A stretch of 56,387 bases of DNA from Allohoeflea poritis (GTDB taxonomy: Bacteria; Pseudomonadota; Alphaproteobacteria; Rhizobiales; Rhizobiaceae). Position 1 is the first letter of the stretch; every line of letters starts with the position of its first letter. A program made the translations under genes and the position numbers. Under the pieces are notes generated by a model. The model saw nothing but the letters and a program-made list of their open reading frames with translations, ran no database searches and had not been told where the DNA came from. This document shows, in pieces, positions 19,869 through 56,387 of the stretch. Where the stretch lies: the NCBI RefSeq assembly GCF_027889715.1, contig NZ_JAPJZH010000024.1, positions 1 through 56,387 of the forward strand, written 5' to 3'.

Positions 19869-20604
19869 TACATGTCATCCAAATGGTTCCGCAAAAATGG
19901 AATTTTCAGTGACTAATCCATCTTTGGATAAAAAGTAAGACCTTTTTATTGAAAGTATGCAAAAAGGTGGTTTATGTCTGATGAGGTTCACACGGGGGGC
20001 AACTCGCTGCCGCCGCGTGAGATCGCTTTGGCGCGCTGTTTGTTTGGGTGAAAAACGCCCCACAGGCGCGTTTGATATTGGAGTGACTACGCTGTTGAGG
20101 TCGTCCGCGGGCCCGATCAATACAGTATTTGCTCCTGAAGAAGAGAGATAGGTACTCAATGCGACAACCCAACATGTCCTTCGGTGATTTGGTTGAGTTG
20201 CTTCTGGATGACGCCAATGATGGCGAAGTTTTCGCGACCATGGGCTTGTTGTCAAATGGCTGTACGGCGGTGCTGGAATATGCCCGACCATACGCCCTAG
20301 ATCTTGATAGCTTGGCAGCCTCGCGGCGCAGGTATGAGCACTTGGCAACGATTAAGGCGGACACGGAGGCCGCGCCAACACACAATCCCAAAACAGGCAA
20401 ATTTGTTTGGTCGCGCGGTGACAATCGCTTCGGATGGCAGTGTTACCTGGGGGGATTTTACGGCACCGGGTGTCGCGTCGCCCATTTTTTGCCGGCGCTT
20501 AAGTGGGATCTTTCCATGCTGCCGGCCGTGTAGATCTGCAGGAAGCAATCCAGAGCTGGCACTGATTGACAAAGACAGGGCTTAAGAAAAGGGAGAGAAG
20601 CTGT
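19869..20604. other. 736-bp gap with decayed coding traces
   Basis: Apart from box A, no intact gene was recognised. Short plus-strand stretches look once-coding, for example MSDEVHTGGNSLPPREIALA from 19976, ending at a stop 25 codons on, and a 124-codon frame from ATG 20160 to 20533 without a known domain. A small unrecognised gene cannot be excluded. The thiolase-like gene begins at 20605. Confidence 0.4.
19934..19942. promoter_or_regulatory. degenerate GntR box A
   Basis: The sequence AGTAAGACC, flanked by A- and T-runs, is one base off the GGTAAGACC core found at other promoters here. It lies about 66 bp upstream of the acyl-CoA dehydrogenase start. Confidence 0.45.
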
Positions 20605-21777
20605 ATGACATCAAACCATCTGGCCTTTATTGCTGGCGCATTTGAGCATCCCACACGCAAGGCGATTGATAAGACGGTTGCCCAGTTACATGCCGAGTCC
20701 GCACTGGGTGCGCTGGCGGATGCCGGCCTAACCAAAGAAGATGTTGACGGTTATTTCTGCGCTGGCGATGCGCCTGGCTTGGGCGGCATGTCGATTGCCG
20801 AGTACCTGAACTTGAATCTGACACATACCGATAGCACGGAGACTGGAGGTTCATCATACCTGATTCACGTCGGACATGCTGTGCAAGCCATTGCGCAGGG
20901 TAAGTGCAAAGTTGCGTTGATCACTTTGGCTGGACGCCCTCGTGCCGATGGCGCGACGATGGCTCAGGCAACTCCGAGGGCATTGTTGCCGCCCGAAGAG
21001 AGTTTTGAAAGGCCCTACGGTCCGGTTATTCCGGCCTTGTATGCCATGGCAGCAAAGCGGCACATGTATGAGTACGGAACGACGTCGGAACAACTGGCGT
21101 GGATCAAGGTCGCAGCGTCACATCACGCCCAGCACAACAAGCATGCAATGCTGCGCGACGTTGTGTCCGTAGAAGAGGTCATAAATTCGCCGATCATAGC
21201 GGACCCGATTCACCGGTTGGACTGTTGCGTGGTCAGTGACGGCGGCGGCGCGGTGATTGTTGTCTCGCCAGAGGTTGCGCGCGACCTGGGGGACCGTTGC
21301 GTTGGCATTAAAGCGCACGCTGAAGCAGTCAAGCACCTGTCGGGCGGGTATTTTGACTTGACCTTCACCGGCGCTGTGGTCACTGGCCCCAAAGCATTTG
21401 CCGAAGCTGGCATTGTTCCCACTGACATCGACTACGCCTCAATTTACGACAGCTTCACGATCACGGTTCTCGAAACTGTCGAGGATTTGGGTTTTTGCCA
21501 GAAAGGAAAAGGAGGTGCATTTGTTGCAGATGGAAACCTGATTTCCGGCGTTGGCAAACTACCTTTCAACACAGACGGTGGGGGGCTGTGCAACAACCAT
21601 CCAACTAACCGCGGGGGGATGACCAAAGTGATCGAGGCAGTCCGGCAACTACGTGGCGAGGCCCATCCCAATGTGCAGGTTAATAACTGCGGTTTGGCAC
21701 TGGTTCACGGCACCGGCGGTGCAATCTCAACAAGAATGGGCAGTGCAACCCTGATTCTTGAAAGGAACGACGCATGA
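20605..21777 (+). CDS. thiolase-fold protein lacking the thiolase cysteines (Ltp2-like)
   Basis: These 390 residues have thiolase-superfamily layout: DSTETGGSSYLIHVGHAVQAI in the region where thiolases carry the nucleophilic Cys (quoted in part: TGGSSYL, 80-86), ASIYDSFTITVLETVEDLGF, GGGLCNNHPTNRGGM, and a final LVHGTGG where the second Cys is expected. Both catalytic Cys positions are replaced. The next gene overlaps by 4 bp and encodes a DUF35 protein, an arrangement known for the steroid side-chain retro-aldolase Ltp2-ChsH2. A carbon-carbon lyase acting on a beta-hydroxyacyl-CoA is more likely than a true thiolase, but this is inference. GGGAG precedes the ATG at 20605. Confidence 0.82.
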   Translation: MTSNHLAFIAGAFEHPTRKAIDKTVAQLHAESALGALADAGLTKEDVDGYFCAGDAPGLGGMSIAEYLNLNLTHTDSTETGGSSYLIHVGHAVQAIAQGKCKVALITLAGRPRADGATMAQATPRALLPPEESFERPYGPVIPALYAMAAKRHMYEYGTTSEQLAWIKVAASHHAQHNKHAMLRDVVSVEEVINSPIIADPIHRLDCCVVSDGGGAVIVVSPEVARDLGDRCVGIKAHAEAVKHLSGGYFDLTFTGAVVTGPKAFAEAGIVPTDIDYASIYDSFTITVLETVEDLGFCQKGKGGAFVADGNLISGVGKLPFNTDGGGLCNNHPTNRGGMTKVIEAVRQLRGEAHPNVQVNNCGLALVHGTGGAISTRMGSATLILERNDA

Positions 21778-22163
21778 TGCAGGATCGAACTTACCCTGAT
21801 CCAACACCAAACCTGGAAACCGAGCCTTTCTGGGCTGCGGCGAAGGATGAAAAGCTACTCCTCAAATACTGTAGAACTTGTGGCAAGGCCCACTATTATC
21901 CCCGAGCGGTTTGTCCACTTTGCGGAAGCACCGAAACGGAATGGCGTGAGGCATCCGGCAGGGGTGAGATATACAGTTTCACCCAGTTTCGCCGGGCGCC
22001 CGTTCCCTATGTGTTGGCCTATGTGACGCTCATAGAAGGGCCGGCCATGCTTACAAACGTCGTCGACTGCGAATTTGATGATCTGAAAATCGGCCAACCG
22101 GTGGGCGTGACCTTTCGCGATACACAGGCTGGTTTCAAACTCCCGGTTTTTCGCCCGGTTTGA
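21774..22163 (+). CDS. DUF35 zinc-ribbon/OB-fold protein, partner of the thiolase-like gene
   Basis: This 129-residue protein has a four-cysteine zinc ribbon (CRTCGKAHYYPRAVCPLCGS) followed by an OB-fold half (GEIYSFTQFRRAPVPYVLAY). DUF35 proteins bind thiolase-like enzymes and acyl-CoA substrates; ChsH2 is the studied example. The gene overlaps the preceding gene by 4 bp, so the two proteins are expected to be made in equal amounts and form a complex. Confidence 0.88.
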   Translation: MMQDRTYPDPTPNLETEPFWAAAKDEKLLLKYCRTCGKAHYYPRAVCPLCGSTETEWREASGRGEIYSFTQFRRAPVPYVLAYVTLIEGPAMLTNVVDCEFDDLKIGQPVGVTFRDTQAGFKLPVFRPV

Positions 22164-22499
22164 CAATGGCAACATCGTCGCCCTTGTCTTGATGGTTGAC
22201 ATAGGATCAGGGCAGGGCGGATCAGTTCAGGCTGGACCGCCATGAAGCGTTTGGTGTGCGCGATTGCGTAATCCTGCCGAAGATAGCGGCATCGCGAAAA
22301 TCCGACGCTTCTTCGGGTCGTAGCGTTTTAGAATTTGAATTCGTGCCCGCAGGCACCCGTTGGAAAAGACAGCGCCACGTGAGTCAATTTCGACGAGATG
22401 AGGATGTAATTGATCACCAATCGACGCCAAGTAATATAAACCCTGCCAACGGATGAAGTTGTTGATCGGCAATCTCCACGCCAAGCTCAGCACTTACCA
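22164..22499. other. gap after the DUF35 gene
   Basis: No intact gene is visible. The minus strand here may contain a badly decayed RibF C-terminus (a SFPTG stretch resembles the GFPTAN motif), but the match is too weak to annotate. Confidence 0.35.
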
Positions 22500-23156: not shown

Positions 23157-24842
23157 TTAGCGGCCGGACGATCGTTTTGCATCTTGAGCGCCGAGACTTG
23201 ATCTTTTCCCAACTACCTTTTCGAGAACAAAGGACGGGTCGAGCGGTAGATGTTCGTTTCGCCAGGCTACGTGGCCATCCGGCCGGACCAACACAAACCG
23301 TCGATCATAAATGTTGGCGATATCGGGCTGATCAACGAGCAGAACTTCAAATGGTATGCCAAGTTCCTTGGCCTGCACGGCAAATGCTTCCTCGGCGGCG
23401 CGCCGATCAACATCGGTAAATGTCAACAACACAAAGCCGCCGCCAAAAAAGTCGATCATTGAGCGACCGTCCCGTAGCCAAGCATGTGGCGCTCGCGCAC
23501 CCGGGCGACTTGTCTGATTGTATATTATGGCTTCTTCGTATTCTTTCGCGATAAGGTCGGGATCTTCGCCTTCTTCATATATAATAATATCTGAGTTCAT
23601 ATACCGATTGCCAAGATGCATGTTTAGCGAGAACCATTCTCTGCGCAAGCCTTCATCAAAATACTTCCGCAGCCGGCGGCGTTGTTCCCGGCCCTCGTCG
23701 CTTTCCTTGAACATCTCCTCGGTCGCTGCCGCCGCTTTCATCGTGTTGAGGTTTCCGGTAGAAAACTGCGTAAACCGCGCTGCAATGGGAATTCGTTCCT
23801 GATCATAAGATCTTAACAGGGCTTCCTTGTCGCCCCAGCCTTGCAGTATCGCAGATAGCTTCCATGCCAGATCAACCGCGTCACCAATTCCCGTATTCAT
23901 GCCCAGGCCGGCGGTGGGCGATGTACGGTGGCAAGCATCGCCACATAGTATCACGCGACCGGAATGGTACCGATCTGCTACCAACTCTGATCGAATCCAC
24001 GGCATAATGGAGATGACAGTCAGGTCGAATTTTTTTCCAACCATTTTGTAGGCGAATTCGGCCACTTCCTCCTCGTTGTAAAGGGGTTGCGGGTTCTTGT
24101 CGCCGATTATCGACATTCGCCATCTGTCGCGGCCGTCTATGGCTACGATTGTTCCCCACGCCCCATCAGGCCCCACGAACATGTAACGATATCCCGGCGT
24201 CTTATCATGGAGATCGTTGAAACCTTGTGCTTCGAATATCACGTTGGTTGTGTAAGTGAGGACTCCGGCGCCGTGCATTTCAATGCCGAGCTCGTCTCTT
24301 ATTCCAGAGTTGCCTCCGTCACACCCGACCAGGAACTGCGCAGAGATTTGCTTGGTCTCACCAGTCTTCAGGCACGAAATTTTGGCGACCACATGATCGC
24401 TTTTCTGTTCATGCTCCAAATACTTTAAACCATAGTGGATCTCGGCGCCCTTTTCTCGCGCGAATTCTGTCAGGACAGGATCAAAGAAATTCTGCGGACA
24501 GCGCTCCCGTGTCACCGGGCTTTGTGCCGGGGGGATTTCACGACTCATCGAAGGCATTATTTGTCGACCTATTTCAAAGCCGGTCATGGTTGTGAGGAAA
24601 ACATTATCCTGCGGATAGTCGCGATTATAACCAGCATTGTGGACCCGTTCGGTGAGACCCCAGCGCCTCATATACTCCATCGTTCGAATGCCCACCATAT
24701 CCATCTTTGGTTGTCCGGCCGTGCCGTCGTTCATATCGACAAGTGTTACTTCATGGCCGCGGTTCGACAAATCACCCGCTAGGGCAAGCCCGACCGGCCC
24801 CGCTCCTACAACAAGGATTTCTGTTTCAACTTTGAATGTCAT
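23157..24842 (-). CDS. class A FAD-dependent aromatic monooxygenase
   Basis: This 561-residue flavoprotein of the phenol hydroxylase/MhpA/TfdB group has the GxGxxG FAD motif in EILVVGAGPVGLALAGDL, the NAD(P)H/FAD DG motif region VGCDGGNSGIRDELG, and the second FAD motif VILCGDACHRTSPTAGLGMN. A C-terminal thioredoxin-like domain ends RPDGHVAWR, typical of this group. It probably hydroxylates a phenolic or hydroxybenzoate-type ring to make a substrate for the gentisate-type dioxygenase encoded 3.6 kb upstream. The ATG at 24842 directly precedes the flavin motif; further upstream codons look non-coding. A GntR-type box lies 237 bp upstream. Confidence 0.86.
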   Translation of the reverse strand: MTFKVETEILVVGAGPVGLALAGDLSNRGHEVTLVDMNDGTAGQPKMDMVGIRTMEYMRRWGLTERVHNAGYNRDYPQDNVFLTTMTGFEIGRQIMPSMSREIPPAQSPVTRERCPQNFFDPVLTEFAREKGAEIHYGLKYLEHEQKSDHVVAKISCLKTGETKQISAQFLVGCDGGNSGIRDELGIEMHGAGVLTYTTNVIFEAQGFNDLHDKTPGYRYMFVGPDGAWGTIVAIDGRDRWRMSIIGDKNPQPLYNEEEVAEFAYKMVGKKFDLTVISIMPWIRSELVADRYHSGRVILCGDACHRTSPTAGLGMNTGIGDAVDLAWKLSAILQGWGDKEALLRSYDQERIPIAARFTQFSTGNLNTMKAAAATEEMFKESDEGREQRRRLRKYFDEGLRREWFSLNMHLGNRYMNSDIIIYEEGEDPDLIAKEYEEAIIYNQTSRPGARAPHAWLRDGRSMIDFFGGGFVLLTFTDVDRRAAEEAFAVQAKELGIPFEVLLVDQPDIANIYDRRFVLVRPDGHVAWRNEHLPLDPSFVLEKVVGKRSSLGAQDAKRSSGR

Positions 24843-25221
24843 CGGCTTCGTGCTCTTTTTTGTTGTGACAGGGCCAATCATCGACTTAGCCTGCTGATTG
24901 ATTGAGTGGTTTCGAACCAATAGCTAACTGATCTCATCGGGTGCGTTAGATGGGTTTAAGGGAACAGTTTCCCAGGTTTGGAGCTCGGTCTTCGGGTTGG
25001 AAGTCAAAGTCATCATTTGCAGGCCCCGTTGCGGGATTCCGCAAAATCTTGCGTTTACGGTTTTACACTTTGGCAAATGGTAAGACCAAGGTCAATGAAC
25101 CTTGAATAACTATGTCTTGATTCCGACAAGCAAATTGTCAGCCCGTGCTCATCTGCCGGCTTTTATGCTCGCCATCAGCGGCCGCCTTGTTGATTGGCGT
25201 CGCCGCAAGTCAACAATACAG
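24843..25221. other. promoter gap of the monooxygenase
   Basis: No gene is visible in this 379-bp stretch. It holds GntR box B (25079-25089) and probably the promoter of the minus-strand monooxygenase. Confidence 0.5.
25079..25089. promoter_or_regulatory. GntR box B (TGGTAAGACCA)
   Basis: TGGTAAGACCA matches the core of the PdhR/FadR-type operator (TGGTnnnACCA). It stands alone in the gap before the monooxygenase gene. Confidence 0.65.
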
Positions 25222-25836
25222 CTAGAAAGGACGTGATTTTTGCCTTCTTGCCAGCGCCTTGCCGCGCCGAGATCCAAGTCTTTTCGATTGATCGAGCCAC
25301 CGGGAGCGTTTTCCCTCCGATGAGTTAGCAATCGGCCCGAAAGTGAATATCCGGGTTGGAGAAACACCGGCTGGCTTTAGCATGGCACGTTTAATCAGAT
25401 TGTGTCCCGGCGCGCCCAAGACCCATTTGTAAAGCCTTGGAGGTGTGTCCATCGTGACAATCACATCTGCGGACCGGCCGGTAAGATGCCGCTTGGGAAG
25501 CAAAGTTCCTGGTTCGAATTCGAACGCCCAGTTCTTTCCAAAGACCTGTTCCAAAAAACCTTTTAATCGGGCCGGCATCGCACCCAACCATGTTGGGTAG
25601 GCGAACACGATATGGGCAGCAGAACGAATCCGGTTTCTGGCGTCTTCGAACACCGGGTCCAACGGTCCTGGTCGGCCAGACGGGGTTGCGTCGAAGGGCA
25701 TTTGCGACAGATCCATGAAGTCAACTTCGCAGCCTGAATCGCGTACACCTTCGGCATATGCCTCGGCCAGGGCACCACCGTAGCTCTTGATCGTTGGAAA
25801 ACCGAAAATAATGAGAATCTTCGAGGGAGCGCCCAT
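25222..25836 (-). CDS. NAD(P)H-dependent flavodoxin-fold oxidoreductase
   Basis: This 204-residue flavodoxin-like protein of the NQO/KefF family starts KILIIFGFPTIKSYGGALA and has the FMN-loop FAYPTWLGAMPARLKGFLEQVF, plus VTMDTPPRLYKWVLGAPG. It probably reduces a quinone or supplies reduced flavin. Its ATG lies one base after the stop of the flavoprotein gene upstream, so the two are cotranscribed. The basic C-terminal tail (LGSRRGKALARRQKSRPF) is a little longer than usual. Confidence 0.8.
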   Translation of the reverse strand: MGAPSKILIIFGFPTIKSYGGALAEAYAEGVRDSGCEVDFMDLSQMPFDATPSGRPGPLDPVFEDARNRIRSAAHIVFAYPTWLGAMPARLKGFLEQVFGKNWAFEFEPGTLLPKRHLTGRSADVIVTMDTPPRLYKWVLGAPGHNLIKRAMLKPAGVSPTRIFTFGPIANSSEGKRSRWLDQSKRLGSRRGKALARRQKSRPF

Positions 25837-25837
25837 G

Positions 25838-27283
25838 CTACTTCACCGGTTTTTGTCGAATGGCGCCGTTCGCGGCTACGCGCCCGAAGATCACGGACTT
25901 TGAAAGCGAAGAGCCGCTCATATATCCACTGCCGTGAAAACCGCCGACGCATTCACCAGCCGCGAATAAACCCTCTATCGGATTGCCGAAAACGTCCAAC
26001 ACTTCCATGTTCCGGGTTACCCGTAAGCCGCAATAAGTCGCCAGCATAGCCGTCGTGCATGGATAGATGTAAAATGGAGCTGAATCGATTTTGGAAAGCG
26101 TACCCCAGCCGCGACCGAGGCTGGTTCGCCCGAAGACGGTATCACCGCCTGCATCGACGTCGCGATTGTATTTTTCAATGGTTTTGGTAAGCACGTTGCC
26201 ATCCAAGCCTACCAGCTCGGCGAGCGCTTCGATGGTATCGGCTTTTTTTACCAATCCCAGTTCGAGCGCTCCTTCGAAGTCGTTCGCATTCGGCGCTTTA
26301 CGAGATTGATCCATGATTGACTGATCCCAAACTTGGAACCCGATGGAACGTTGTTGATCGAGGCAGATTTCGCCAAGTTTTTTGTAAGAAATCGACTCGT
26401 CTGCAAATCGTTCGCCGTTCAGATTTACCGCCACGGCGCCACGGTAAATGGCAAGACGCAACAGTGCTTCGCTCGCCTTGGGAGGATTGTCTTCGGGATA
26501 GTTGTTGAGCGAAACGCCAAAGGTTCCATTTAAGAACGCCGTATCGACAAAGTCCGCGCCTAGCTTCCACGCCATCAACAATCCGTCGCCGGAATTTCCT
26601 TCGCCCCCCAACCGTAAAGCCCGCGCCATGCTCGGAGCGAATTTGGCGATCAGTTCGGCATTTCTGGAAAACCCACCGGTGGCGATCACAACGCCAAGTC
26701 GTGCGTTGACAGTTTCGCGCAATCCATTGTGGTCGATTGTAGCGCCGCTGACACGGCCATCGCCGTCAACGTACAAATTGGTAGCCGAAGCGTTGTTTAG
26801 ATAGGTGATGCGGTCATCATCCAACACACGTTGGTGCAGGGCGTCCATCAGCTGCTGCGGATCTGTTGCGTGGGTGCGTGGTACAGATTGATTGGAGCTT
26901 AAAGTGACGGGATGAAAAACGACCCCGTTCGCCAACAGCCAGTCAAAGGCTTCAGATTGATGTTCCATGTAGAGCGATACAAGCTGCGGATCTGCTGCGT
27001 TTCCGGACGCCGCCATGATGTCATCGGCCATGGTTTGAGCGGTATCTTCGAAGCCTGCAGCTCGCTGGGCAGCAGTGCCCGCAAATGCAAATGATCCGCT
27101 GCTTTGAACCGTGCTTCCGCCATATTCGGCGTTTTTCTCAACAAGAAGCACTTTGAACCCTTGACCGGCCGCCTCAAGAGCGGCGCTATGGCCCGCAAGA
27201 CCGCCTCCCAAAACCAGAAGTTCACACTCTTCCAATGCATGTATGCGTACGTCGTTCGTCATAACACTCTCAGCCCTACTCAT
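25838..27283 (-). CDS. FAD-dependent fumarate-reductase-like oxidoreductase
   Basis: This 481-residue FAD_binding_2 family protein has ECELLVLGGGLAGHSAALEA (dinucleotide fold), EKNAEYGGSTVQSSGSFAFA, and the C-terminal GLFAAGECVGGFHGSGYMSG that closes the FAD site. The family includes fumarate reductase, urocanate reductase, tricarballylate dehydrogenase and ketosteroid dehydrogenases: all move hydrogens across a C-C bond next to a carbonyl. The exact substrate is unknown. No haem motif or Sec signal is visible, so it is likely cytoplasmic. The start at 27283 (AAAGG eight bases upstream) or 27262 is plausible. GntR box C lies 50 bp upstream. Confidence 0.85.
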   Translation of the reverse strand: MSRAESVMTNDVRIHALEECELLVLGGGLAGHSAALEAAGQGFKVLLVEKNAEYGGSTVQSSGSFAFAGTAAQRAAGFEDTAQTMADDIMAASGNAADPQLVSLYMEHQSEAFDWLLANGVVFHPVTLSSNQSVPRTHATDPQQLMDALHQRVLDDDRITYLNNASATNLYVDGDGRVSGATIDHNGLRETVNARLGVVIATGGFSRNAELIAKFAPSMARALRLGGEGNSGDGLLMAWKLGADFVDTAFLNGTFGVSLNNYPEDNPPKASEALLRLAIYRGAVAVNLNGERFADESISYKKLGEICLDQQRSIGFQVWDQSIMDQSRKAPNANDFEGALELGLVKKADTIEALAELVGLDGNVLTKTIEKYNRDVDAGGDTVFGRTSLGRGWGTLSKIDSAPFYIYPCTTAMLATYCGLRVTRNMEVLDVFGNPIEGLFAAGECVGGFHGSGYMSGSSLSKSVIFGRVAANGAIRQKPVK

Positions 27284-27332
27284 TGGCGTCGGCCTTTCAC
27301 AGTTTGCCGTGCGTTTCTCTAGAGTAGACAAA

Positions 27333-27343
27333 TGGTATTACCA
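27333..27343. promoter_or_regulatory. GntR box C (TGGTATTACCA)
   Basis: The box sits in a perfect 17-bp palindrome, AAATGGTATTACCATTT (27330-27346), 50 bp upstream of the flavoprotein start. It is the most symmetrical member of the set. Confidence 0.7.
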
Positions 27344-27501
27344 TTTAATTTGGCGGATATGGATTGTCAATCAAGCTTAACATCGAACCACCGAATGTTC
27401 CGACATTGGTCGGGCCCGCAGTGGTGCTTAACTCGAGTTTTAAAAGCAATGGCTGCACTCGAAAGACGACCGGCGGCAGGCGATCCGTGATTGGAACTGA
27501 A

Positions 27502-28389: not shown

Positions 28390-28403
28390 GAACTGTCTCC
28401 TTA

Positions 28404-29456: not shown

Positions 29457-29623
29457 GCGTTTCTCCATGGTTTTTATTGAGCCGGCGACAGATCGCGGGC
29501 GTTTGGTTCAAGTCAGCAACTGGAGCGCTAAAGAATTTAGATGTAATAGTTTTGGATCTTGGGAGTGGCCAATATACAAGTACGAATGCTAGATGCGGTA
29601 TTGTGTTTGCGTATTTCATTGCA

Positions 29624-46340: not shown

Positions 46341-46364
46341 AAATTCTTGACACGTGGGTATTTT

Positions 46365-46375: not shown

Positions 46376-46460
46376 TGGTTGGTGCGCGCTCATGACCTTT
46401 GTGATGCTCAATTCTCATTCGCTCTCAGCGATGGACCAACCGTGGATTGACTGTGGCATT

Positions 46461-46471
46461 TGGTCTTACCG
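46461..46471. promoter_or_regulatory. GntR box H (TGGTCTTACCG)
   Basis: This is the third box, about 115 bp before the acyl-CoA dehydrogenase start. Its core is the reverse complement of that in boxes B and F. Confidence 0.62.
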
Positions 46472-46585
46472 ATATTAAGGCCGGTAAATTGTGCTTGGTA
46501 TCATATCGATGGCAAAGAATCGCGCTGGGTGGGGTTCGGTTTTGGGGTGGGTTGGCTCACCGTTTGCACACATGGACAGTAGAAA

Positions 46586-47746: not shown

Positions 47747-47780
47747 ATCCAAACGCGGAAACGAAAATCCAGGTAGAAAG

Positions 47781-49988
47781 ATGCAGAACCTCGATACTTA
47801 CTTGTGGCCCAAGTCCGTGGCATTGATCGGCGCTTCGCCCGAGGAAAACAATGCAAAGGCGGGCATCCGCGGCCGGTTGACCAGCGTCCTTTTGCAACAC
47901 GGCTATGACGGGGAAATTTTTCTAATTTCGCGGAGTAACCATGAGATTTCTGGGCGAAAAACATACCGGTCTATTCTGGAAGTACCCAGCGATGTTGACC
48001 TGGCGATTATCGCGACACCGGCTCAGTACGTCGTCGATGAAGTCAGAAACTGTGCGACTGTTGGTGTGAAATCTATACTGGTTGTCTCGTCGGGATTTGC
48101 TGAGTCCAAAGAAGATGGAGCGGCAGAACGCCAAAAGGCTATCGAACGGATCTGCAGGCTAAACAGAATCAATCTGGCTGGCCCCAATTGCCAGGGATTT
48201 GTGAACACACTCAATGGCCTGTTTGCTACTTTTGCAAAACCTTATGACAAGCCGAATTATGCCATTGTGCCCGCATCCGGCCGATCAGGTAGGGTGGCCA
48301 TAATTTCGCAATCTGGTGGCATCGGAAACGGGTATTTTGTGCACACCCGCTTAAAGGAGATGGCTGCCAGCTACATTCTAACGACCGGCAATGAAGCCGG
48401 CGTGAACCTGTCTGAACTGATAGAATATGTTCTAGATCGGGGAGAAACCAGCGCGATCCTTGTTTTGATGGAAGACATCAAGGACCCCCAGACATTTATT
48501 CGAGCAGCGGACAAGGCGCTTAAGATGGGGGTGCCGATAATCGTTTCAAAAATCGGCAAGTCCGAAGCAGGGCAGCGCGCAGCTGAGTCGCATACTGCGG
48601 CTTTGGCTGGAGGATATAGTGGCACACAGGCGGTTTTTCGAAAATACGGTATCATCGAAGCTGACGATATTGGTGAAATGGCCGACATCGCCAACGGCTT
48701 TTGTCATTTCGGGAATTGCCTCCCTGCAGGGAACCGGGTGGCAATCTTAACCGGTTCAGGTGGTGGCGGCGGCCTTATGGCAGATGCTGCGTCCGGAGCT
48801 GGCCTTGTCGTACCTGAACTTGATGTTGAAACCCGAAGGTCATTGGATCGGGTAATACCCGATTATGGAACTTCGCAAAATCCGGTTGACGCCACCGCAC
48901 AGGGCCTTCGTCTGGTGCGCTATTCGGGCCTGATAGAGCGAGTCATGCCTTCCAGCGAAATTGATGCTGTCCTTTTTGTTGCATCGACGCGCGATACGCT
49001 GACATTTGAGCTCGATGCTGAGAGGCTTACGGAAATCTCAGCTGAACTGCAAAAACCGGTTCTCGTGTGGACGTACACGGTACCGTTTCCGCATATACAA
49101 GAAATGTATGGAGAAGTCGGTCTGCCGCTATTCACAGACCTGCGAAACTGCACGCGAACGATGCGGGAAATGGCTGATTACCACGCGTTCCGGACATCCT
49201 ACCTCAGCTGTCCAGTTGAGCCGTCACTGCCCGGTTGCGACAAGACCAGTGCGGCGTCGCTGCTGGTGGGAATGAGCGGTGCCTTACCCGAGTTCCAATC
49301 AAGACCGATCCTTGCAAGTTACAATATCTGCGAAGCAGCAGATCTCCTGGTCGATTCGCCCGAATCTGCAGCTGAAGCGCAGGCTTCGCTGGATGTCCCG
49401 ATTGCTCTTAAGGTCCAATCACCCAGTATTCTGCACAAATCGGATGCCGGGGCGCTAAAGCTAAATATCAAAGGTCCGGGTGCCGCAGCTAAAGCCTATA
49501 GTGACATTGTGGCGAACGCCAAAAAGTATGATCCCGATGCTAAGATTGCTGGTGTCCTTGTTCAACCAATGATGCCCGACGGCGTCGAAATGATACTCGG
49601 CATCTCCCGAGATGAGACATTCGGGCCGATGTTGATGGTTGGTTTGGGCGGGATTTTTGTAGAGATCCTCAATGACGTGGCGTTTGCTCCTGTACCTTTG
49701 AGCCGAAACGAAGCGCGCAGAATGTTGCGTCGTTTAAAAGGATTTCCGCTCTTGTCGGGCGCACGCGGTACGACTCATGCCGATCTTGACGCGCTGGTTG
49801 AAATGATGGTTCGCCTCGCTAAGCTCGCCGATGATTTTCGCGATCATATTGCGGAGATTGATCTCAATCCGGTGATCGTGCACCCAATGGGCGAAGGTGT
49901 TTCGGTGGCAGACGCGATGCTTGTTGTTGACGGCAGTTTTGGCATGTCGAAGCAAGACCAACATCGGACAACTCACTCCGCAGCGTAA
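47781..49988 (+). CDS. NDP-forming acyl-CoA synthetase
   Basis: This 735-residue single-chain member of the ADP-forming acetyl-CoA synthetase family has an N-terminal CoA-binding domain (LWPKSVALIGASPEENNAKA), a succinyl-CoA-synthetase-like domain (VAIISQSGGIGNGYF, phospho-His271 in ESHTAALAG), and an ATP-grasp domain at the C-terminus (PIALKVQSPSILHKSDAGAL, MVGLGGIFVEILNDVAFAPV). It activates an organic acid to its CoA ester using ATP. The ATG at 47781 follows AGGTAGAAAG. Its genomic setting suggests activation of the imported acid. Confidence 0.88.
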   Translation: MQNLDTYLWPKSVALIGASPEENNAKAGIRGRLTSVLLQHGYDGEIFLISRSNHEISGRKTYRSILEVPSDVDLAIIATPAQYVVDEVRNCATVGVKSILVVSSGFAESKEDGAAERQKAIERICRLNRINLAGPNCQGFVNTLNGLFATFAKPYDKPNYAIVPASGRSGRVAIISQSGGIGNGYFVHTRLKEMAASYILTTGNEAGVNLSELIEYVLDRGETSAILVLMEDIKDPQTFIRAADKALKMGVPIIVSKIGKSEAGQRAAESHTAALAGGYSGTQAVFRKYGIIEADDIGEMADIANGFCHFGNCLPAGNRVAILTGSGGGGGLMADAASGAGLVVPELDVETRRSLDRVIPDYGTSQNPVDATAQGLRLVRYSGLIERVMPSSEIDAVLFVASTRDTLTFELDAERLTEISAELQKPVLVWTYTVPFPHIQEMYGEVGLPLFTDLRNCTRTMREMADYHAFRTSYLSCPVEPSLPGCDKTSAASLLVGMSGALPEFQSRPILASYNICEAADLLVDSPESAAEAQASLDVPIALKVQSPSILHKSDAGALKLNIKGPGAAAKAYSDIVANAKKYDPDAKIAGVLVQPMMPDGVEMILGISRDETFGPMLMVGLGGIFVEILNDVAFAPVPLSRNEARRMLRRLKGFPLLSGARGTTHADLDALVEMMVRLAKLADDFRDHIAEIDLNPVIVHPMGEGVSVADAMLVVDGSFGMSKQDQHRTTHSAA

Positions 49989-50066
49989 TTCAACCGTATG
50001 AGCGCGTGATCGAGCTAAGGCGCTTCGCGCAATATTTGGATCTGGGTTTATTGAGAGGCAAAGGCA

Positions 50067-52361
50067 ATGAATGAACGGGTAAAAACGCCGGAAGGTAGAC
50101 CTTACTATAAGGAGATTGGAACCCGCCCTATTCGACCCGATGGTGTTGAAAAAGTAACTGGTTCCGCACGATTCGGCGATGACTTTACATTGCCGGGGAC
50201 ATTAGTCGGCAAAATCTTGAGATCGCCGCATCCTCACGCGCGTCTGATTTCTGTTGACACATCCAATGCAAAGAAAATCGCCGGTGTAAAGGCGATCGTC
50301 ACGGGGTCTGATTTTCCAGATCAACCATTTGCCTACACCGGTCCAGCGGTGCTCGAGCGCAACATGTGGCACGTTACGCGCAACGTGATAGCAAGAGAAA
50401 AAGTACTGTATGAAGGGCATGCGGTTGCTGCAGTGGCCGCCGTTGACGAAAAAACGGCGTCCGCAGCATTGCAGGCGATCGCGGTCGAGTACGAGATCCT
50501 CCCACACGTAACGACACTGGATGAAGCATTGGCACCAGATGCAGTGCTTTTGTTTGAGGATATGATCACGCGCGGCGTCGAACCGGCACCTGAGAAACCT
50601 ACAAACATAGCCAGGCGCGCGAATTACGAGAAAGGACAGATCGATACGGCTTGGAGTTCGGCTGATCTTATCGTGGAGCGGAGCTATGAGACCAAGCCGG
50701 TTCATCAAGGGTATATCGAGCCTCATGCTTGTCTGGCCCACTATCATCCGGACGGTCAAGCCGATCTTTATACATCGAGCCAGGGCCACTTCCAGATGCG
50801 GGCCTTAACGGCCACTTTGACCGGGATGCGATTGACTGACATCAGAGCTATTCCGGCAGAGATTGGCGGCGGCTTTGGTGGCAAGACGGTCGTGTATCTT
50901 GAGCCGTTGGCGATGATGCTTTCCAAGATGTCGGGATTTCCGGTCAGAATGAAAATGACTCGCTCAGAAGTGTTCAAGGCCTCTGGACCGGCAGCCGGTA
51001 CAAAAGCGCGGATTAAACTTGGAGCAAAAAAGAATGGCACGCTGGTCGCCGCTGAAGTTGAAATGTATTATGAAGCCGGCGCCTTCCCGGGGTCTCCGTT
51101 TGTCAACGGCGTCCTGTGTTGCGTTGCGCCTTACACGATTCCCAATGTCCGACTGACAGGATGGGACGTAGTCGCAAATCGTCCGAAAGTTGCTGCTTAC
51201 CGTGCGCCCGGGTCTCCGCAGTCGAACTTTGCGTTTGAGAGTACGGTTGACATAGTCTGCAAAAAGTTGGGTTTGGACCCGATCGCATTTCGAAAGATGA
51301 ACGCTGTGCAAGTCGGGGCAGAACTGCTCGGTGGCCGACAATTAAACCACGAGGGATATCTGCAGCTACTGGAGGCGACTGAAAGGCATCCGCAATATGC
51401 GACCGAGTTAGGGCCCAATCAAGGGCGCGGGTTTGCTGCCGGTTACTGGCCAAACGCTGGAGGAGAATCCGGTGCGACGGTCTATGTAAATGCAGATGGC
51501 ACCGTTAATATCGCTACCGGTAGCCCCGACATAGGAGGCTCTCGTGCCTCTATGGCTCAAATGACGGCTGAAACACTTGGTATCTCCTATGATCGGGTTC
51601 GTAGCGCCGTCAACGATACGACGTCGGTTCCCTTTACTCACGTTACCGGTGGTTCGCGCGTGACCTTTGCGACCGGAAAAGCGGTGGTCGCAGCGTGTGA
51701 AACAGTGATCGCTGACCTACGCGCCAGGGCCGCAAAAATCTGGGATGTCGATGTGGACGCAGTAGACTGGAGAGAAGGGGCGGCGCACCCGTCATCTTCA
51801 AATGTGGGGGATTTTGATCCTTTAACTCTTGGCGATTTGGCAGCAAGGGCAACGGAAACCGGCGGACCAATTGGCAGTTCCGGTGCGCTCAATGCAACTG
51901 GGCACGCCCCAGGGTTCTCTGCGGCGCTTTGCGATGTTGAAGTTGATCCCGAGACAGGGCACGTAAAGATTATCCGTTTTACCGTCGCGCAAGATGCCGG
52001 GGTGGCGATCCATCCGTCCTACGTTGAAGGGCAGATGCAGGGAGCGGTAGTTCAAGGAATTGGCTGGGCGCTTTCGGAAGAATACATCTATGGTCCTGAT
52101 GGCCGGCTGCAGAACCACGGATTCTTGGATTATCGGATGCCGGTAGCGTCCGATCTGCCGATGATTGACCCCATTGTGGTCGAAGTGCCGAACCCAGATC
52201 ATCCATTCGGGGTGAAAGGCGTCGCAGAGGCCGGAATGGTTACGGCGATGGCTAGCGTTGCCAATGCCGTTGCGGACGCCGTTGATCGGCGAATGACTTC
52301 GCTTCCGATTTCGCCGCCCAAGCTCGCCAAAGAAATCGCAGCGGGCAAAGCAGCAATGTGA
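50067..52361 (+). CDS. molybdenum hydroxylase large subunit (xanthine oxidase family)
   Basis: This 764-residue molybdopterin-binding subunit has RPDGVEKVTGSARFGDD at the start, PAEIGGGFGGK near 268, an AYRAPGSPQ active-site loop near 380, and the catalytic-Glu region GVKGVAEAGMVTAM near 720. The loop lacks the Cys-Ser of true CO dehydrogenase, so it is a hydroxylase of the xanthine/aldehyde/aromatic group rather than CoxL. FAD and Fe-S subunits follow immediately. The substrate is not evident; hydroxylation of a heteroaromatic or CoA-linked ring, or aldehyde oxidation, are options. Confidence 0.9.
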   Translation: MNERVKTPEGRPYYKEIGTRPIRPDGVEKVTGSARFGDDFTLPGTLVGKILRSPHPHARLISVDTSNAKKIAGVKAIVTGSDFPDQPFAYTGPAVLERNMWHVTRNVIAREKVLYEGHAVAAVAAVDEKTASAALQAIAVEYEILPHVTTLDEALAPDAVLLFEDMITRGVEPAPEKPTNIARRANYEKGQIDTAWSSADLIVERSYETKPVHQGYIEPHACLAHYHPDGQADLYTSSQGHFQMRALTATLTGMRLTDIRAIPAEIGGGFGGKTVVYLEPLAMMLSKMSGFPVRMKMTRSEVFKASGPAAGTKARIKLGAKKNGTLVAAEVEMYYEAGAFPGSPFVNGVLCCVAPYTIPNVRLTGWDVVANRPKVAAYRAPGSPQSNFAFESTVDIVCKKLGLDPIAFRKMNAVQVGAELLGGRQLNHEGYLQLLEATERHPQYATELGPNQGRGFAAGYWPNAGGESGATVYVNADGTVNIATGSPDIGGSRASMAQMTAETLGISYDRVRSAVNDTTSVPFTHVTGGSRVTFATGKAVVAACETVIADLRARAAKIWDVDVDAVDWREGAAHPSSSNVGDFDPLTLGDLAARATETGGPIGSSGALNATGHAPGFSAALCDVEVDPETGHVKIIRFTVAQDAGVAIHPSYVEGQMQGAVVQGIGWALSEEYIYGPDGRLQNHGFLDYRMPVASDLPMIDPIVVEVPNPDHPFGVKGVAEAGMVTAMASVANAVADAVDRRMTSLPISPPKLAKEIAAGKAAM

Positions 52362-52404
52362 ACGCGGTCTTTGTTACCATCATGTGTGTGAGGGAAATGG
52401 TTAC

Positions 52405-53277
52405 ATGCAGTATTCCGCACCCGAAACAATAGAATCGGCGCTCAAGCTACTGGAAAGCGATGACGATGCTCGAGTCATGGCGGGAGGCACGGATTTGATT
52501 GTTCAAATGACGTCTGGCATGCGGTCACCAAGCCACGTTGTTGATATTAAGCGAATACCCGAACTTTGCGGTGTCGTGCAAACTGCTGACGGCGGTTGGA
52601 AAATTGGCGCTGCTGTGCCGGGCGCTGAACTGAACGAACATGTGGAACTTAAGCGAGACTGGCCGGGATTTGTGGAAGCGACTGATCTCATCGGATCAAT
52701 GCAGGTGCAGGGGCGGGCGACCCCTGTTGGGAACTTGTGCAATGCGTCTCCAGCTGGTGATGCAGTACCCGGCATGGTTGCCGCCGGTGCCACTGTAACC
52801 GTCGCTGGATCAAATGGGTTCCGTGATGTTGCCGCGCACGATGTTCCTGCCGCCCCTGGTAGAACAAATTTGGAGAAGAATGAATTCGTCATCGCCGTGA
52901 ACCTGCCGCCTAAACCTCCAAACTCCGGTGATGCTTATTTGCGTTTCATCCCACGAACGGAGATGGATATTGCTGTGGTAGGAACTGGGGTATTCTTGGC
53001 ATTTGGTGAATCCGGTCATGTCAGGGAGGCTCGTATTGCGCTCGGAGCAATCGCGCCGACGGTTGTTTTTTGCACGGAAGCTGCCGACGCCCTTATAGGC
53101 TCTCGTTTGGAAGAAGAAGCCATTGAAGCAGCGGTGTTGGCTGCACGAAACGCTTGCAATCCGATCGACGACAAGCGCGGTACAGCCGAATTCAGGGTCC
53201 ACACTGTTGGGGTCCTCATAAAGCGTTCGATTGCGATAGCTACTCAGCGTGCCAAGCGACAAGTTGGGATGGATTAA
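52405..53277 (+). CDS. molybdenum hydroxylase FAD subunit
   Basis: This 290-residue FAD_binding_5 protein begins QYSAPETIESALKLLES and has AGGTDLIVQMTSGMR and ATPVGNLCNASPAGDAVPGM for FAD, then RTEMDIAVVGTGVFLAFG. It passes electrons from the Fe-S subunit to an acceptor. It starts 43 bp after the large subunit; GAGGGA lies before the ATG at 52405, preferred over GTG 52384. Confidence 0.9.
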   Translation: MQYSAPETIESALKLLESDDDARVMAGGTDLIVQMTSGMRSPSHVVDIKRIPELCGVVQTADGGWKIGAAVPGAELNEHVELKRDWPGFVEATDLIGSMQVQGRATPVGNLCNASPAGDAVPGMVAAGATVTVAGSNGFRDVAAHDVPAAPGRTNLEKNEFVIAVNLPPKPPNSGDAYLRFIPRTEMDIAVVGTGVFLAFGESGHVREARIALGAIAPTVVFCTEAADALIGSRLEEEAIEAAVLAARNACNPIDDKRGTAEFRVHTVGVLIKRSIAIATQRAKRQVGMD

Positions 53278-53278
53278 A

Positions 53279-53752
53279 ATGTCGAAAATGCACATAACCA
53301 CGTCAATCAACGGTGACACAACCGAGTTTCTAGCCGAGGCGGATCAGACCTTACTTTCTGCTTTGCGGGACAATCTCCGGCTTACCGGCACGAAAGAGGG
53401 TTGCGGATCAGGCGATTGTGGGGCGTGCTCCGTTAGAGTGGACGGCCGTGTGGTGTGTTCCTGTCTGATGCTTGCGCCCGAGGCGCAGGATAGAGCTATC
53501 GAAACAATCGAGGGAATGGCTGACGGCGACAATCTGCATCCGGTGCAACGGCGCTTTTTGGAGGAAGCGGCACTGCAATGCGGATTTTGCACACCTGGAT
53601 TCCTGATTGCCGCGCGAGATCTGCTTGATCGAAACCCCAATCCGACCGAGACGGAAATAAGGTTTTGGCTAGCCGGAAATCTGTGCCGCTGTACTGGTTA
53701 TGACAAAATCGTTCGAGCGGTCCAGAAGGCGGCGGAGGATGTTCGCGGTTAA
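53279..53752 (+). CDS. molybdenum hydroxylase 2Fe-2S subunit
   Basis: This 157-residue protein carries two [2Fe-2S] clusters. The N-terminal plant-type cluster has Cys42, Cys47, Cys50 and Cys62 (GCGSGDCGACSV), and the C-terminal cluster uses LQCGFCTPGF and LCRCTGYD. It completes an L-M-S set with one base between its ATG and the previous stop. It links the molybdenum site to the FAD subunit. Confidence 0.93.
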   Translation: MSKMHITTSINGDTTEFLAEADQTLLSALRDNLRLTGTKEGCGSGDCGACSVRVDGRVVCSCLMLAPEAQDRAIETIEGMADGDNLHPVQRRFLEEAALQCGFCTPGFLIAARDLLDRNPNPTETEIRFWLAGNLCRCTGYDKIVRAVQKAAEDVRG

Positions 53753-53797: not shown

Positions 53798-54658
53798 TTA
53801 ATCCGAAACAACAATACGCCCATTGTTGAGAACTACGCGATCATTGGCAAGGGCTCGGAATGCGATGGTGTTTCCATCTTGCCAACTATCGATCCGAACA
53901 GTGTCACCTGGAAAAACCGGGCTGGAAAAGCGGGCTTCATGCGATATGAGTTTTGAGCCGTCTAAGCCGCAATAGGTTTTTAAAATCCCAAAAGCCGAAA
54001 GTCCGTAGCTGCAGAGGCCATGGAGTATTGGTGCGCGAAACCCGGCCGCGGACGCAACTGCCGGATCCGCATGCAACGGATTCCAATCTCCAGACAAGCG
54101 ATAGATCAAAGCCTGATTAGTTTGTGTTGATATTTCAAGGACGTTGTCGGGTTCTCGGTCAGGGAGCCTGGCAGGGTTCGGAAGTTCATCAGACTGCTTA
54201 CCAAATCCACCATCTGCTCGAGCGAGAGTTGTTGATGTTATGGTTGCGATGTTTTCACCAGTACTTTTTTCAGCAAGCTTTCGCTCGTTAAGTACCAATG
54301 CGCCCCGGTTTACGCCCTTGTCGACAACACTAACTATTCGTTGAGAGCAAATCACAGTCCCTGATGTTGGCAGCGTGCGATGCATCTCGATGCGTTGACC
54401 GGCATGAACCATCTTTGAGTAGGTCACGCCTGTGGAAGGGTCGGTCGCCCAGTTTGAGCGCATTCCGATAGCAACCACTTGAGTGGGCATCGTGGAAAAT
54501 CGTTCATGGCCCTCGTAGACGAAGCGCAGCGCTTCATTGTCCTCTGGATCTACGCCAATTCCAAGGCCGAGCGCATACAAAATGCTGTCGCGTTCAGTGT
54601 AATGGCATTCCAGATCCGGAAACGGATAGTTTAGTGTAGCTTCATAATTCAGCGCCAA
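53798..54658 (-). CDS. MaoC-family 2-enoyl-CoA hydratase (hydratase 2-like)
   Basis: This 286-residue double-hotdog protein has a degenerate N-terminal half and a C-terminal half with the hydratase 2 motif GDWNPLHADPAVASAAGF and APILHGLCSYG, whose Asp and His are the known catalytic pair of (R)-specific enoyl-CoA hydratases. AAGGAG lies seven bases before TTG 54658, which gives the usual N-terminus (ALNYEATLNYPFPD); the longer frame to 54730 has no fitting site. It is divergent from the SDR at 54774 over box I, and together they make an MFE-like hydratase/dehydrogenase pair. Confidence 0.87.
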   Translation of the reverse strand: MALNYEATLNYPFPDLECHYTERDSILYALGLGIGVDPEDNEALRFVYEGHERFSTMPTQVVAIGMRSNWATDPSTGVTYSKMVHAGQRIEMHRTLPTSGTVICSQRIVSVVDKGVNRGALVLNERKLAEKSTGENIATITSTTLARADGGFGKQSDELPNPARLPDREPDNVLEISTQTNQALIYRLSGDWNPLHADPAVASAAGFRAPILHGLCSYGLSAFGILKTYCGLDGSKLISHEARFSSPVFPGDTVRIDSWQDGNTIAFRALANDRVVLNNGRIVVSD

Positions 54659-54759
54659 AAGCGAGCTCCTTCTCAAAGACTGTGACACGACCGAAGATCG
54701 TGGTCGCAGCGGGATTGCATCATCGACCACAAACAGCTATGAACCATTAAAGGTATAAA

Positions 54760-54770
54760 AGGTCTTACCA
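54760..54770. promoter_or_regulatory. GntR box I (AGGTCTTACCA)
   Basis: It lies between the divergent MaoC and SDR genes and ends only three bases before the SDR ATG at 54774. A bound repressor would lie over the transcription start or leader of the SDR gene. Confidence 0.65.
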
Positions 54771-54773
54771 AAA

Positions 54774-55685
54774 ATGAAAATGCTAAATTCCCAAGTTATT
54801 CTGGTCACCGGCGCAGGTCAGGGGCTTGGCCGAGAAATTGCAATCATGGCCGCCAAAGAAGGTGCAAGTGTTGTTGTAAACGACATTGGCGCCAGCCTTG
54901 ACGGAAAAGGAAATGACCGAACCGCGGCGGAAAAAGTCGTTGGAGAGATTGAGGAGCTCGGCGGGATCGCGGTGGCGAATTTCGACTCGGTTTCTGATTG
55001 GAACTCTGCGCACGCTATGGTCAGCCAGGCGGTGGATCGATTTGGGCGCTTGGACGGTATTGTCAACAATGCGGGTATCCTGCGGGATTCGATATTCCAC
55101 AAGATGCAAGAGCAAGATTTCGACGCCGTAGTCTCCACTCATTTGAAAGGGACGTTTAACGTTTCTAGAGCCGCGGCCGAACAATTCAGGGCGCAAGATT
55201 ACGGCCGCATGGTTCACATGACCTCGACATCTGGTCTTATCGGTTCGGTGGGGCAAGCAAATTATTCCGCTGCGAAAATGGGAATCATTGGATTGTCCAC
55301 CAGCATCGCCATTGAAATGGGTCGTTACAATGTGACGTCTAACTGTGTGGCTCCATTCGCTTTCAGCCGTATGACTGGTTCAATCCCAGTAAATACGAAA
55401 GACGACGAGGCCCGGATGGAACGCATCAAAACCATGGAGGCATCCAAAGTTGCCGTCTTGGTTGCTGCACTGCTTTCTAAGGATGCGGCCAAAGTATCCG
55501 GGCAGGTGTTCTCTTCTCGAGCAAACGAAATTTCACTGTACAATGCTATGCGCCCCTTTCGCACCCTCCACAGGTCGCCAGGATGGCGGGTACCAGAGGT
55601 CGTGAATACTGTCTTTCCTGCGTTTGAGTCCGACTTTTCACCTCTCGAGGTGACGGGAGACGTCTATCGTTGGGACCCAGTGTAA
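54774..55685 (+). CDS. SDR-family 3-hydroxyacyl-CoA dehydrogenase, multifunctional-enzyme type
   Basis: This 303-residue short-chain dehydrogenase looks like the N-terminal dehydrogenase unit of peroxisomal multifunctional enzyme 2: ILVTGAGQGLGREIAIMAAK, NDIGASLDGKGNDRTAAEKV, IVNNAGILRDSIFHKM, catalytic Tyr/Lys in YSAAK. In MFE-2 the hydratase 2 domain is fused; here it is encoded separately and divergently. It probably oxidises a (3R)-hydroxyacyl-CoA. Start 54774 or 54780; no convincing Shine-Dalgarno site, so a leaderless mRNA is possible. Confidence 0.88.
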   Translation: MKMLNSQVILVTGAGQGLGREIAIMAAKEGASVVVNDIGASLDGKGNDRTAAEKVVGEIEELGGIAVANFDSVSDWNSAHAMVSQAVDRFGRLDGIVNNAGILRDSIFHKMQEQDFDAVVSTHLKGTFNVSRAAAEQFRAQDYGRMVHMTSTSGLIGSVGQANYSAAKMGIIGLSTSIAIEMGRYNVTSNCVAPFAFSRMTGSIPVNTKDDEARMERIKTMEASKVAVLVAALLSKDAAKVSGQVFSSRANEISLYNAMRPFRTLHRSPGWRVPEVVNTVFPAFESDFSPLEVTGDVYRWDPV

Positions 55686-55808
55686 AGCAAGCATGTCTTG
55701 TCAGCCGGCATTGCTGTTTGATCAGGCGGAAGACGAACCGGAAAAATGCCTCTTTCCCACAAGCCGATTTAAGTGAATTGGGCAGTAGGCATAGGCCGTG
55801 GTCTGACT

Positions 55809-55995
55809 GAATGTGTGGAAGACATTCTTGCGGAAAGCGACCGTCCGGAGCTCACTTCTGCCTAGATCGTATCTGGCGGTCGTGGTGTCGGATCAGGAGA
55901 AAACTTGCCGTTGATCGAGGACCTGTCGGACGTCTTTGGCGCAATTGGTATCGAGGATCGTGCAGAAATGTATATGGGCTCAAGCCCGACCTAGG
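55809..55995 (+). pseudogene. etfA: etfA (electron transfer flavoprotein alpha) remnant
   Basis: The plus strand reads ESDRPELTSA, then an in-frame TAG, then IVSGGRGVGSGENLPLIEDL and SDVFGA. SDRPELTSA followed by SGGRGVGSGENF is the start of the FAD-binding domain of ETF alpha. The next expected motif is absent, another stop follows near 55995, and the N-terminal domain and the tail are missing. It is a dead fragment, next to genes whose dehydrogenases need ETF. Confidence 0.78.
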
Positions 55996-56387
55996 CATTA
56001 TGGGCTAGACGCTCGGTTTAATCCCCGAAATGAAAGGTCTCCCACTTGAGGGTAATAAGCAGCCCACTAACCACTCACCGGTAGAAAATGGCGCGCATCT
56101 TTGATTGCTTGTGCGGACGCCTTGCTACCGAGTGTCACTTGTGGTTAAAGGTAATACCAATAACAGTGACAAATTCTTACGTCCAGTTCAGGTGGGATTT
56201 TCCGTCGTGCATTCCCAAAAAACGCCAGCCGACTGGAGAATGCTACAGGGTTGGGAGAGGATGAAAGAACAATGCAGCTTCCAAGAGACGTGGATGATAC
56301 TCCCGAGCCTTCGACACTTGCTTCCTCCCAAGTTGTGCGATGGCGCAACTGAATGGCGGGCGGGCTCCATCGGGCGCGCTCGCCGGT
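55996..56387. other. right end, no recognised gene
   Basis: Besides box J, a GGGAGAGG site precedes ATG 56261, from which the frame stays open to the window end (MKEQCSFQETWMILPSLRHL onward). The translation is not recognised, so it may be a new gene start or decayed DNA. Confidence 0.4.
56149..56159. promoter_or_regulatory. GntR box J (AGGTAATACCA)
   Basis: AAAGGTAATACCAATAA has the same core as boxes C and D. Its target should be a gene beyond the right edge or just inside it. Confidence 0.55.

Follow-up and report, generated by a model that had tools for sequence, protein, structure and literature searches.

Operators of the FadR subfamily of GntR regulators are A/T-rich palindromes with TKGT and ACMA boxes whose GT and AC are mostly 3 nt apart; where a divergon has a single site, it usually serves both operons, and position 39 of the helix-turn-helix (HTH) motif is correlated with the central operator bases, as described in the excerpted text of Suvorova et al. 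2015 (PMC4494728). Excerpts of two further papers give the operator of PdhR of E. coli as (A)ATTGGTnnnACCAAT(T), with a GGTnnnACC core (PMC7660256), and report that PdhR controls its own operon (PMC10572922). NanR uses direct repeats TGGTATAW (excerpt of PMC4494728), and AphS/BphS, repressors of phenol and biphenyl genes, use the even palindrome AAATmTCGAkATTT (excerpt of PMC6449761). The present work concerns a 56,387-nt contig of Allohoeflea poritis (NZ_JAPJZH010000024.1), hereafter the window (coordinates are 1-based), which carries a gene for a GntR/FCD regulator (36844..37614, + strand) and, in its non-coding gaps, repeated copies of the palindrome GGTNNNACC, which an initial annotation had proposed to mark a GntR regulon.

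The window resembles the PdhR system in its FadR-subfamily GntR protein, in the GGTnnnACC core and in the predicted control of the regulator's own operon, but differs in its outer arms (AAT/ATT instead of ATT/AAT) and in its genes, which form a catabolic island instead of serving pyruvate metabolism. NanR provides the best single-sequence match of the regulator in the PDB (6on4), and the NanR subfamily of NCBIfam matches it below the cut-off; nevertheless, NanR is set apart by its direct repeats, as opposed to the palindrome of the window, and by a His that aligns with R207, which is invariant in eight aligned relatives. With AphS/BphS the window would share GntR-family control of aromatic catabolism and several operators per cluster, whereas the AATGG-N5-CCATT operator found in loci of related regulators differs from theirs, a distinction drawn by operator and not by protein comparison. 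Three predicted sites of the window (AATGGTNNNACCATT at 27331, 33490 and 36653) display the TKGT/ACMA boxes with 3 nt between GT and AC that characterise FadR-subfamily operators. The word 'aromatic' is absent from the main text of Suvorova et al. 2015 (PMC4494728), whose supplementary group lists may contain the clade. Among the papers listed, mostly outside subscription journals, we found no description of a GntR clade with AATGG-N5-CCATT, of the full operator or of an aromatic/CoA-thioester regulon. The kind of system is known, the FadR subfamily having been described along with GntR-type repressors for aromatic pathways, and the boxes with the protein at 36844 form a well-supported, newly predicted regulon of that kind.

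Distribution of the palindrome in the window and the genome

Genes were called with our own small codon-usage script, not with a standard gene finder. The window contains 29 copies of GGTNNNACC, compared with 9.55 in shuffled sequences (none of 100 shuffles reached 29). Rightward of position 19,869, the 3,527 gap bases and the 32,992 coding bases hold nine copies each (odds ratio 9.4, Fisher p 1.6e-5). With genes called, the complete set of gap copies in this part consists of those at 25079, 27334, 33493, 36656, 46331, 46366, 46462, 54761 and 56150, all of which had been listed in the initial annotation, eight of them one base too low. Its statement that five sites share the GGTAAGACC core holds for four perfect sites, the fifth being the one-off match at 19934. 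Dinucleotide-shuffled right-hand gaps contained on average 0.56 GGTNNNACC sites (maximum 4), and none of 5,000 shuffles reached nine, which rules out chance as the source of the gap sites. No bias was observed in the left 19.9 kb, the internal control (one copy in 2,141 gap bases, ten in 17,727 coding bases). To offset the choice of the motif by eye, all 3+3 inverted dyads with spacers of 0–10 were ranked in the right-hand gaps: GGT-N3-ACC came first (z 9.4; maximum of 200 shuffles, 5.95), with ten sites because the small open reading frame (ORF) at 33205-33426 was still treated as gap.

At the scale of the 5.58-Mb genome, the notable feature is the concentration of the pattern in the window, which represents 1.0% of the genome, and not its total. 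Six of the nine genomic copies of WWWDGGTNNNACCHWWW and seven of the 52 copies of TGGTNNNACCA lie within the window, while the totals are unremarkable, backward-read patterns giving 7 and 62. All three exact copies of AATGGTNNNACCATT in the genome are those at 27331, 33490 and 36653. The window is A/T-richer (53.6% G+C) than eight other genome stretches (59–62%), so this genome-wide contrast is inflated; the gap shuffles are unaffected. Outside the window, six of eight examined pattern matches (six with one mismatch to AATGGTNNNACCATT and two further) fall inside ORFs. Exact AATGGTNNNACCATT was found in 25 of 121 family genomes, with two copies at most 10 kb apart only in G000 and G405. Places with at most one mismatch to AATGGTNNNACCATT fell in the stretch holding the GntR relatives in 3 of 3 cases in G255, 5 of 8 in G443 and 3 of 5 in G596; one G255 contig (loci L065 and L119) and G443 (L074) also fed the matrix described below, so that neither genome is independent of it. 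Backward-read controls at two mismatches gave mixed ratios (G000 111:47, G443 54:45, G596 78:60, G255 41:9, G035 91:53), and the analysis was therefore built on clustering and gap position rather than on totals. In G405, the exact copies lie on contig C41 at 56733 and 56820, 87 bases apart, and the best listed match to the window GntR protein is 28% identical.

The regulator and the probable operator of its relatives

The protein encoded at 36844 has the Pfam architecture of the FadR subfamily, with GntR (67.5 bits) and FCD (72.1 bits) domains each above the cut-off, and scores below the cut-offs of the NCBIfam equivalogs for NanR (128.7 bits, cut-off 260) and PdhR (94.1 bits, cut-off 330). 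Its best relatives are 37–46% identical, with none above 46% among the matches listed; the best matches among 297 order and 394 family genomes reach 37–42%, and plasmid relatives reach 42.5% among the 15 listed of 35 records. Chelativorans, Variovorax, Hydrogenophaga, Bradyrhizobium, Celeribacter, Ciceribacter, Amycolatopsis, Nocardia and others are represented among the best 80 of a larger number of relatives. A first scan of genome contigs with this protein alone found nothing. The protein is the sole close member of its clade in its own genome, where the next relative is 31% identical. R207, which aligns with a NanR His, is invariant across eight aligned relatives, and NanR VDFH stands opposite EFY/EFH in the family, with the last His mostly retained. 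If these residues belong to what we take to be the His/Asp metal site of NanR-type FCD domains, that site seems by alignment to be altered in the clade, and the effector may therefore bind in another way.

Loci carrying a GntR protein of 37–46% identity (39 close loci) were compared with 41 loci of distant GntR proteins, 37 of them with genes called. An unbiased scan of the close loci returned AATGG-N5-CCATT as the top 5+5 inverted dyad, with 41 copies in 25 loci as against 0.25 copies expected from base composition and three copies in the distant loci; ATGGT-N3-ACCAT came second (21 copies in 16 loci, and eight copies in the distant loci). The consensus of 44 different sites from 24 loci is AATGG-T-Y-N-R-A-CCATT, its outer letters being partly fixed by the site-picking procedure. 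These comparisons suggest a refined conserved operator, AATGG-N5-CCATT, that is larger than GGTNNNACC.

A weight matrix trained on the close loci gave 69 gap, five near-start and two coding matches at a score of at least 16, distributed over 34 of the 39 loci; 91% of this DNA is coding, and in these training loci only the gap bias is informative. A half-swapped control matrix gave one match. The matrix holds no window sequence, which makes the window independent of training, and there 36653, 33490 and 27331 ranked first, followed by 25076. A matrix comparison of gaps with coding DNA had been suggested as a check in the initial annotation: at a score of at least 9, eight gap matches (including 37797, 56147, 46328 and 54758) were interleaved with nine coding matches, where gaps are about a tenth of the sequence and the match at 33293 in the small ORF was entered as coding. 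In the right-hand gaps, nine matches scored at least 7.5 compared with 1.2 expected (none of 1,000 shuffles reached nine), and three scored at least 18 compared with 0.002 expected. The match at 46430, one of these nine, does not coincide with a GGTNNNACC copy and is not listed as a box.

The relatives also carry boxes before most homologous genes, a second check proposed initially. Homologues of window enzymes (at least 35% identity over 60% of the window enzyme length) were boxed in 44 of 55 cases, compared with 350 of 796 for all genes of these loci; a gene was considered boxed when it, or a gene farther upstream in its string, was preceded by a match scoring at least 11.5. L074 and L119 were excluded, and the count includes related loci and repeated families, which are not mutually independent. 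Monooxygenase homologues (45–55% identity) were boxed in all four loci (L057, L091, L092 and L089), cupin homologues in 4 of 4, thiolase homologues in 3 of 4, GMC homologues in 3 of 3 and homologues of the large TRAP permease at 34779 in 4 of 7; in L052, the box lies upstream of the gene string that contains the short-chain dehydrogenase/reductase (SDR) homologue (50%). The combinations of boxed genes differ between species. The Pfam tally of boxed genes covered 103 of 111 targets, eight near-duplicate Bradyrhizobium rows being dropped, and has no matched control tally. From box centre to start codon, the median distance in the relatives was 58 bp (pairs at most 350 bp apart), which is consistent with operators located at the promoter or close to it and suits repression.

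Within the close GntR loci (L057-L096 and L119), the inner operator base, next to GGT, tracked the residue after the HTH 'VSR', with A/T accompanying N and C accompanying P or S: rows with mostly C were 0 of 15 for N and 4 of 4 for P or S (p 2.6e-4). This test used 26 of the 39 loci, omitting five two-GntR loci of differing residue, five without a pattern match and three without boxes, and counted eight Bradyrhizobium-type loci once, which gave 19 rows. We equate the residue after VSR with position 39 of Suvorova et al., and such covariation would look as expected for regulator–operator co-evolution. In a tree of 58 GntR rows (57 of the 80 loci plus the window), the window protein fell in a 36-row group, 30 of whose rows are boxed, as opposed to 6 of the 22 rows outside. 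Support for the group is modest (96/72), and the box label needs 11 changes on the tree and is therefore no clean single-origin mark. Some clusters (L031-L032, L050 with L053, and L055) carry two or three GntR paralogues of the clade with the same box type, where cross-control is possible.

A predicted regulon and its alternatives

Computation shows the boxes, locates them preferentially in gaps, and finds them conserved alongside the GntR clade and situated ahead of homologous genes. On this basis it is highly likely, in our judgement, that they serve the GntR/FCD protein at 36844-37614 as operators. The regulator named in the initial annotation is very probably the right one: in the loci of its relatives the palindrome is nearly confined to gaps and in most cases precedes homologous genes, and no other close member of the clade occurs in its genome. 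A FadR-type regulon centred on it is thus supported. The accompanying idea of a single pathway of about 36 kb is plausible and unproven, given that boxed genes combine differently across species and that the right-hand boxes are a weaker variant.

As to mechanism, we infer that a GntR dimer would bind each palindrome, with AATGGTNNNACCATT as the optimum and with tolerated variants that lose the outer AAT/ATT arms. The box in the gntR/dctQ divergon would confer control of the regulator's own gene and of the TRAP operon for substrate uptake, and the remaining boxes would recruit the surrounding operons of a putative aromatic/alicyclic acid route via CoA thioesters and gentisate-type ring cleavage. 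Analogy with other regulators of the FadR subfamily makes a self-regulating repressor most likely, one that would be released on binding a carboxylate- or CoA-type pathway intermediate. About seven transcription units of this uncharacterised catabolic island are thereby linked with the regulator and its DNA word into one testable unit, and the word could help to find similar islands, and parts still missing from them, in other bacteria of soil and water.

Several observations weigh against this assignment. Five of the 39 close loci lack a match at a score of 16, while 12 of the 37 distant FadR-type loci have one, and part of the signal is therefore generic to the FadR subfamily. Matches in coding DNA appear once the matrix score drops under about 12.3, so that the weak boxes deserve credence collectively but not singly, and the sites at 46366 and 46462 score below 7.5. 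Boxes are absent from 11 of the 55 homologues, including the closest TRAP permease (61% identity, L055). The window GntR protein has P after VSR, yet the halves of its sites carry A 12, C 6 and T 2 times (20 halves, including those of site 33296), a departure from the preference of its relatives for C next to GGT. Its genome contains six one-mismatch AATGGTNNNACCATT places outside the window, and in G035 none of the three places with at most one mismatch lies near its GntR gene, directly before which the matrix finds AATGGGTGATCCATT.

A broader proposal, to which we give slightly less than an even chance, is that an as yet undescribed FadR-type clade in Pseudomonadota and Actinomycetota (with a few rows from metagenome-assembled genomes in other phyla) shares AATGG-N5-CCATT as a portable tag. 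Tagged catabolic modules, such as ring monooxygenase, gentisate-type dioxygenase, acyl-CoA dehydrogenases, thiolase/ChsH2-type pairs and TRAP or tricarboxylate-type uptake, would recombine into one regulon, and several paralogous regulators per genome would read the same tag, with the residue that follows VSR and the base adjoining GGT providing the fine tuning. If a clade-wide operator is true, it offers a handle on substrates, since the compound releasing the regulator is likely to be a pathway intermediate.

The right-hand boxes (46.3–56.2 kb) are a weaker, A/T-flanked variant, with AAA/TTT and similar arms instead of AAT. Their low scores and separate location would also fit two regulators, with the protein at 36844 acting on the AAT-flanked boxes (25–37 kb) and a second protein of FadR type, possibly encoded immediately beyond the contig end, which lies 226 bases past the last box, acting on the AAA/TTT-flanked variants (46–56 kb). 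The two or three GntR paralogues in clusters of relatives favour this division, but the assembly contains no second clade member, and the variant arms also occur in relatives: AAAGGTCCTACCTTT precedes the cupin gene string of L089, and AAA and TTT account for 11 of 120 halves across 60 gap sites in close loci. We regard a division of labour between two proteins as unlikely.

It is likewise doubtful that the protein at 36844 activates transcription, either throughout or at some boxes while repressing at others. The precedent comes from GntR-family biphenyl regulators, one of which, BphS of KKS102, is a repressor and another, BphR1 of KF707, an activator (excerpt of PMC10282184); nevertheless, the short distances between boxes and start codons, together with a weak promoter-like match whose spacer contains a box, favour blocking. 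Finally, a general FadR/PdhR-like regulator of the genome, with the concentration of boxes reflecting A/T-rich DNA, would agree with GGTNNNACC being the known PdhR core (excerpt of PMC7660256) and with the base composition of the contig, but is very improbable in view of the gap shuffles at local composition, the off-window matches lying mostly in ORFs and the family-genome counts, and a genome-wide general regulon was rejected.

Boxes and surrounding genes

No strand is assigned to the boxes. The top-scoring one in the window, with a matrix derived from other species, is AATGGTCAAACCATT (36653..36667), between the divergent dctQ and gntR genes; the TRAP transporter genes for DctP, DctM and DctQ occupy 33651..36653 (- strand). 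Joint second are the exact AATGGTNNNACCATT matches AATGGTAATACCATT (33490..33504), before the leftward genes 33426-27505, and AATGGTATTACCATT (27331..27345), before a leftward pair consisting of an FAD_binding_2 flavoprotein, whose start is probably 27283, and a flavodoxin-fold quinone reductase (25222..27331, - strand). The fourth score belongs to AATGGTAAGACCAAG (25076..25090), before a leftward FAD-dependent aromatic-ring monooxygenase (23157..24920, - strand; FAD_binding_3, Rng_hyd_C), whose nearest solved relatives are RebC and 2-hydroxybiphenyl 3-monooxygenase.

The leftward genes 33426-27505 probably form one operon, in which 158 bases separate SDR and cupin. They comprise an SDR, an MmgE/PrpD protein and an FAD_binding_2 flavoprotein (29624..33201, - strand), followed by a gentisate-dioxygenase-like cupin and an FAA hydrolase (27502..29468, - strand). 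Nearest solved relatives point to an aromatic-ring hydroxylase and gentisate dioxygenase, while no solved relative of the PrpD protein was found at 1e-20. Between the 33490 box and the flavoprotein lies a small hydrophobic ORF of 74 amino acids with a TTG start (33205..33426, - strand), possibly the first gene of the operon; a Pfam search with it gave no match. A further candidate box, GGTAATACC at 33296, falls inside this short ORF, upstream of which a Shine-Dalgarno-like sequence was judged by eye, and was rejected; the initial annotation had rightly omitted it.

A box missing from the earlier list and picked up by the matrix, AAAGGACAGACCAAT (37797..37811), lies in the gap before a second dctP and a GMC oxidoreductase gene and scores 11.8 and 11.2 on two backgrounds, better than the poor site listed as weaker at 37857. 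The genes that follow (37872..46316, + strand) encode DctP, the GMC oxidoreductase, acyl-CoA dehydrogenases, EamA and two zinc alcohol dehydrogenases.

Three variant boxes share the gap before genes for an acyl-CoA dehydrogenase, an NDP-forming CoA ligase and a three-subunit molybdenum hydroxylase (46586..53752, + strand). The first, AAAGGTAAGACCAAA (46328..46342), has the core GGTNNNACC and weak matrix scores of 9.4 and 8.3, and those around GGTTAGACC (46363..46377) and GGTCTTACC (46459..46473) show the core with matrix scores below 7.5. A weak sigma-70-like match (46447-46476) spans the 46459 box, the core of which falls in its spacer. Four short regions scanned for promoters gave few and weak matches, that for the leftward operon at 33490 being on the opposite strand, and these scans therefore say little. 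Further to the right, AAAGGTCTTACCAAA (54758..54772) lies between a MaoC hydratase gene (- strand) and a divergent SDR gene (+ strand) within 53798..55685, and AAAGGTAATACCAAT (56147..56161) is near the contig end, any downstream gene being off the contig. An uncertain, imperfect box, AAAAGTAAGACCTTT (19931..19945), separates an acyl-CoA dehydrogenase gene at 18813 (- strand) from a thiolase gene at 20566 (+ strand), scoring 7.8 in the whole-window scan and below 7.5 in the gap rescan; for this box and those at 46366 and 46462, the evidence consists of the core or of weak scores. The thiolase gene and that of a ChsH2-type OB-fold protein (20566..22163, + strand) have boxed homologues in L072 and L054.

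Outside the boxed region, a salicylyl-CoA 5-hydroxylase equivalog, a benzoate-CoA ligase-like protein and a kynureninase equivalog are encoded close together (3113-9261), in what looks like a kynurenine/2-aminobenzoyl- or salicylyl-CoA route. The contig, with its 53.6% G+C content, starts near a tRNA-Met gene (176-252) and is possibly an acquired island or a plasmid.

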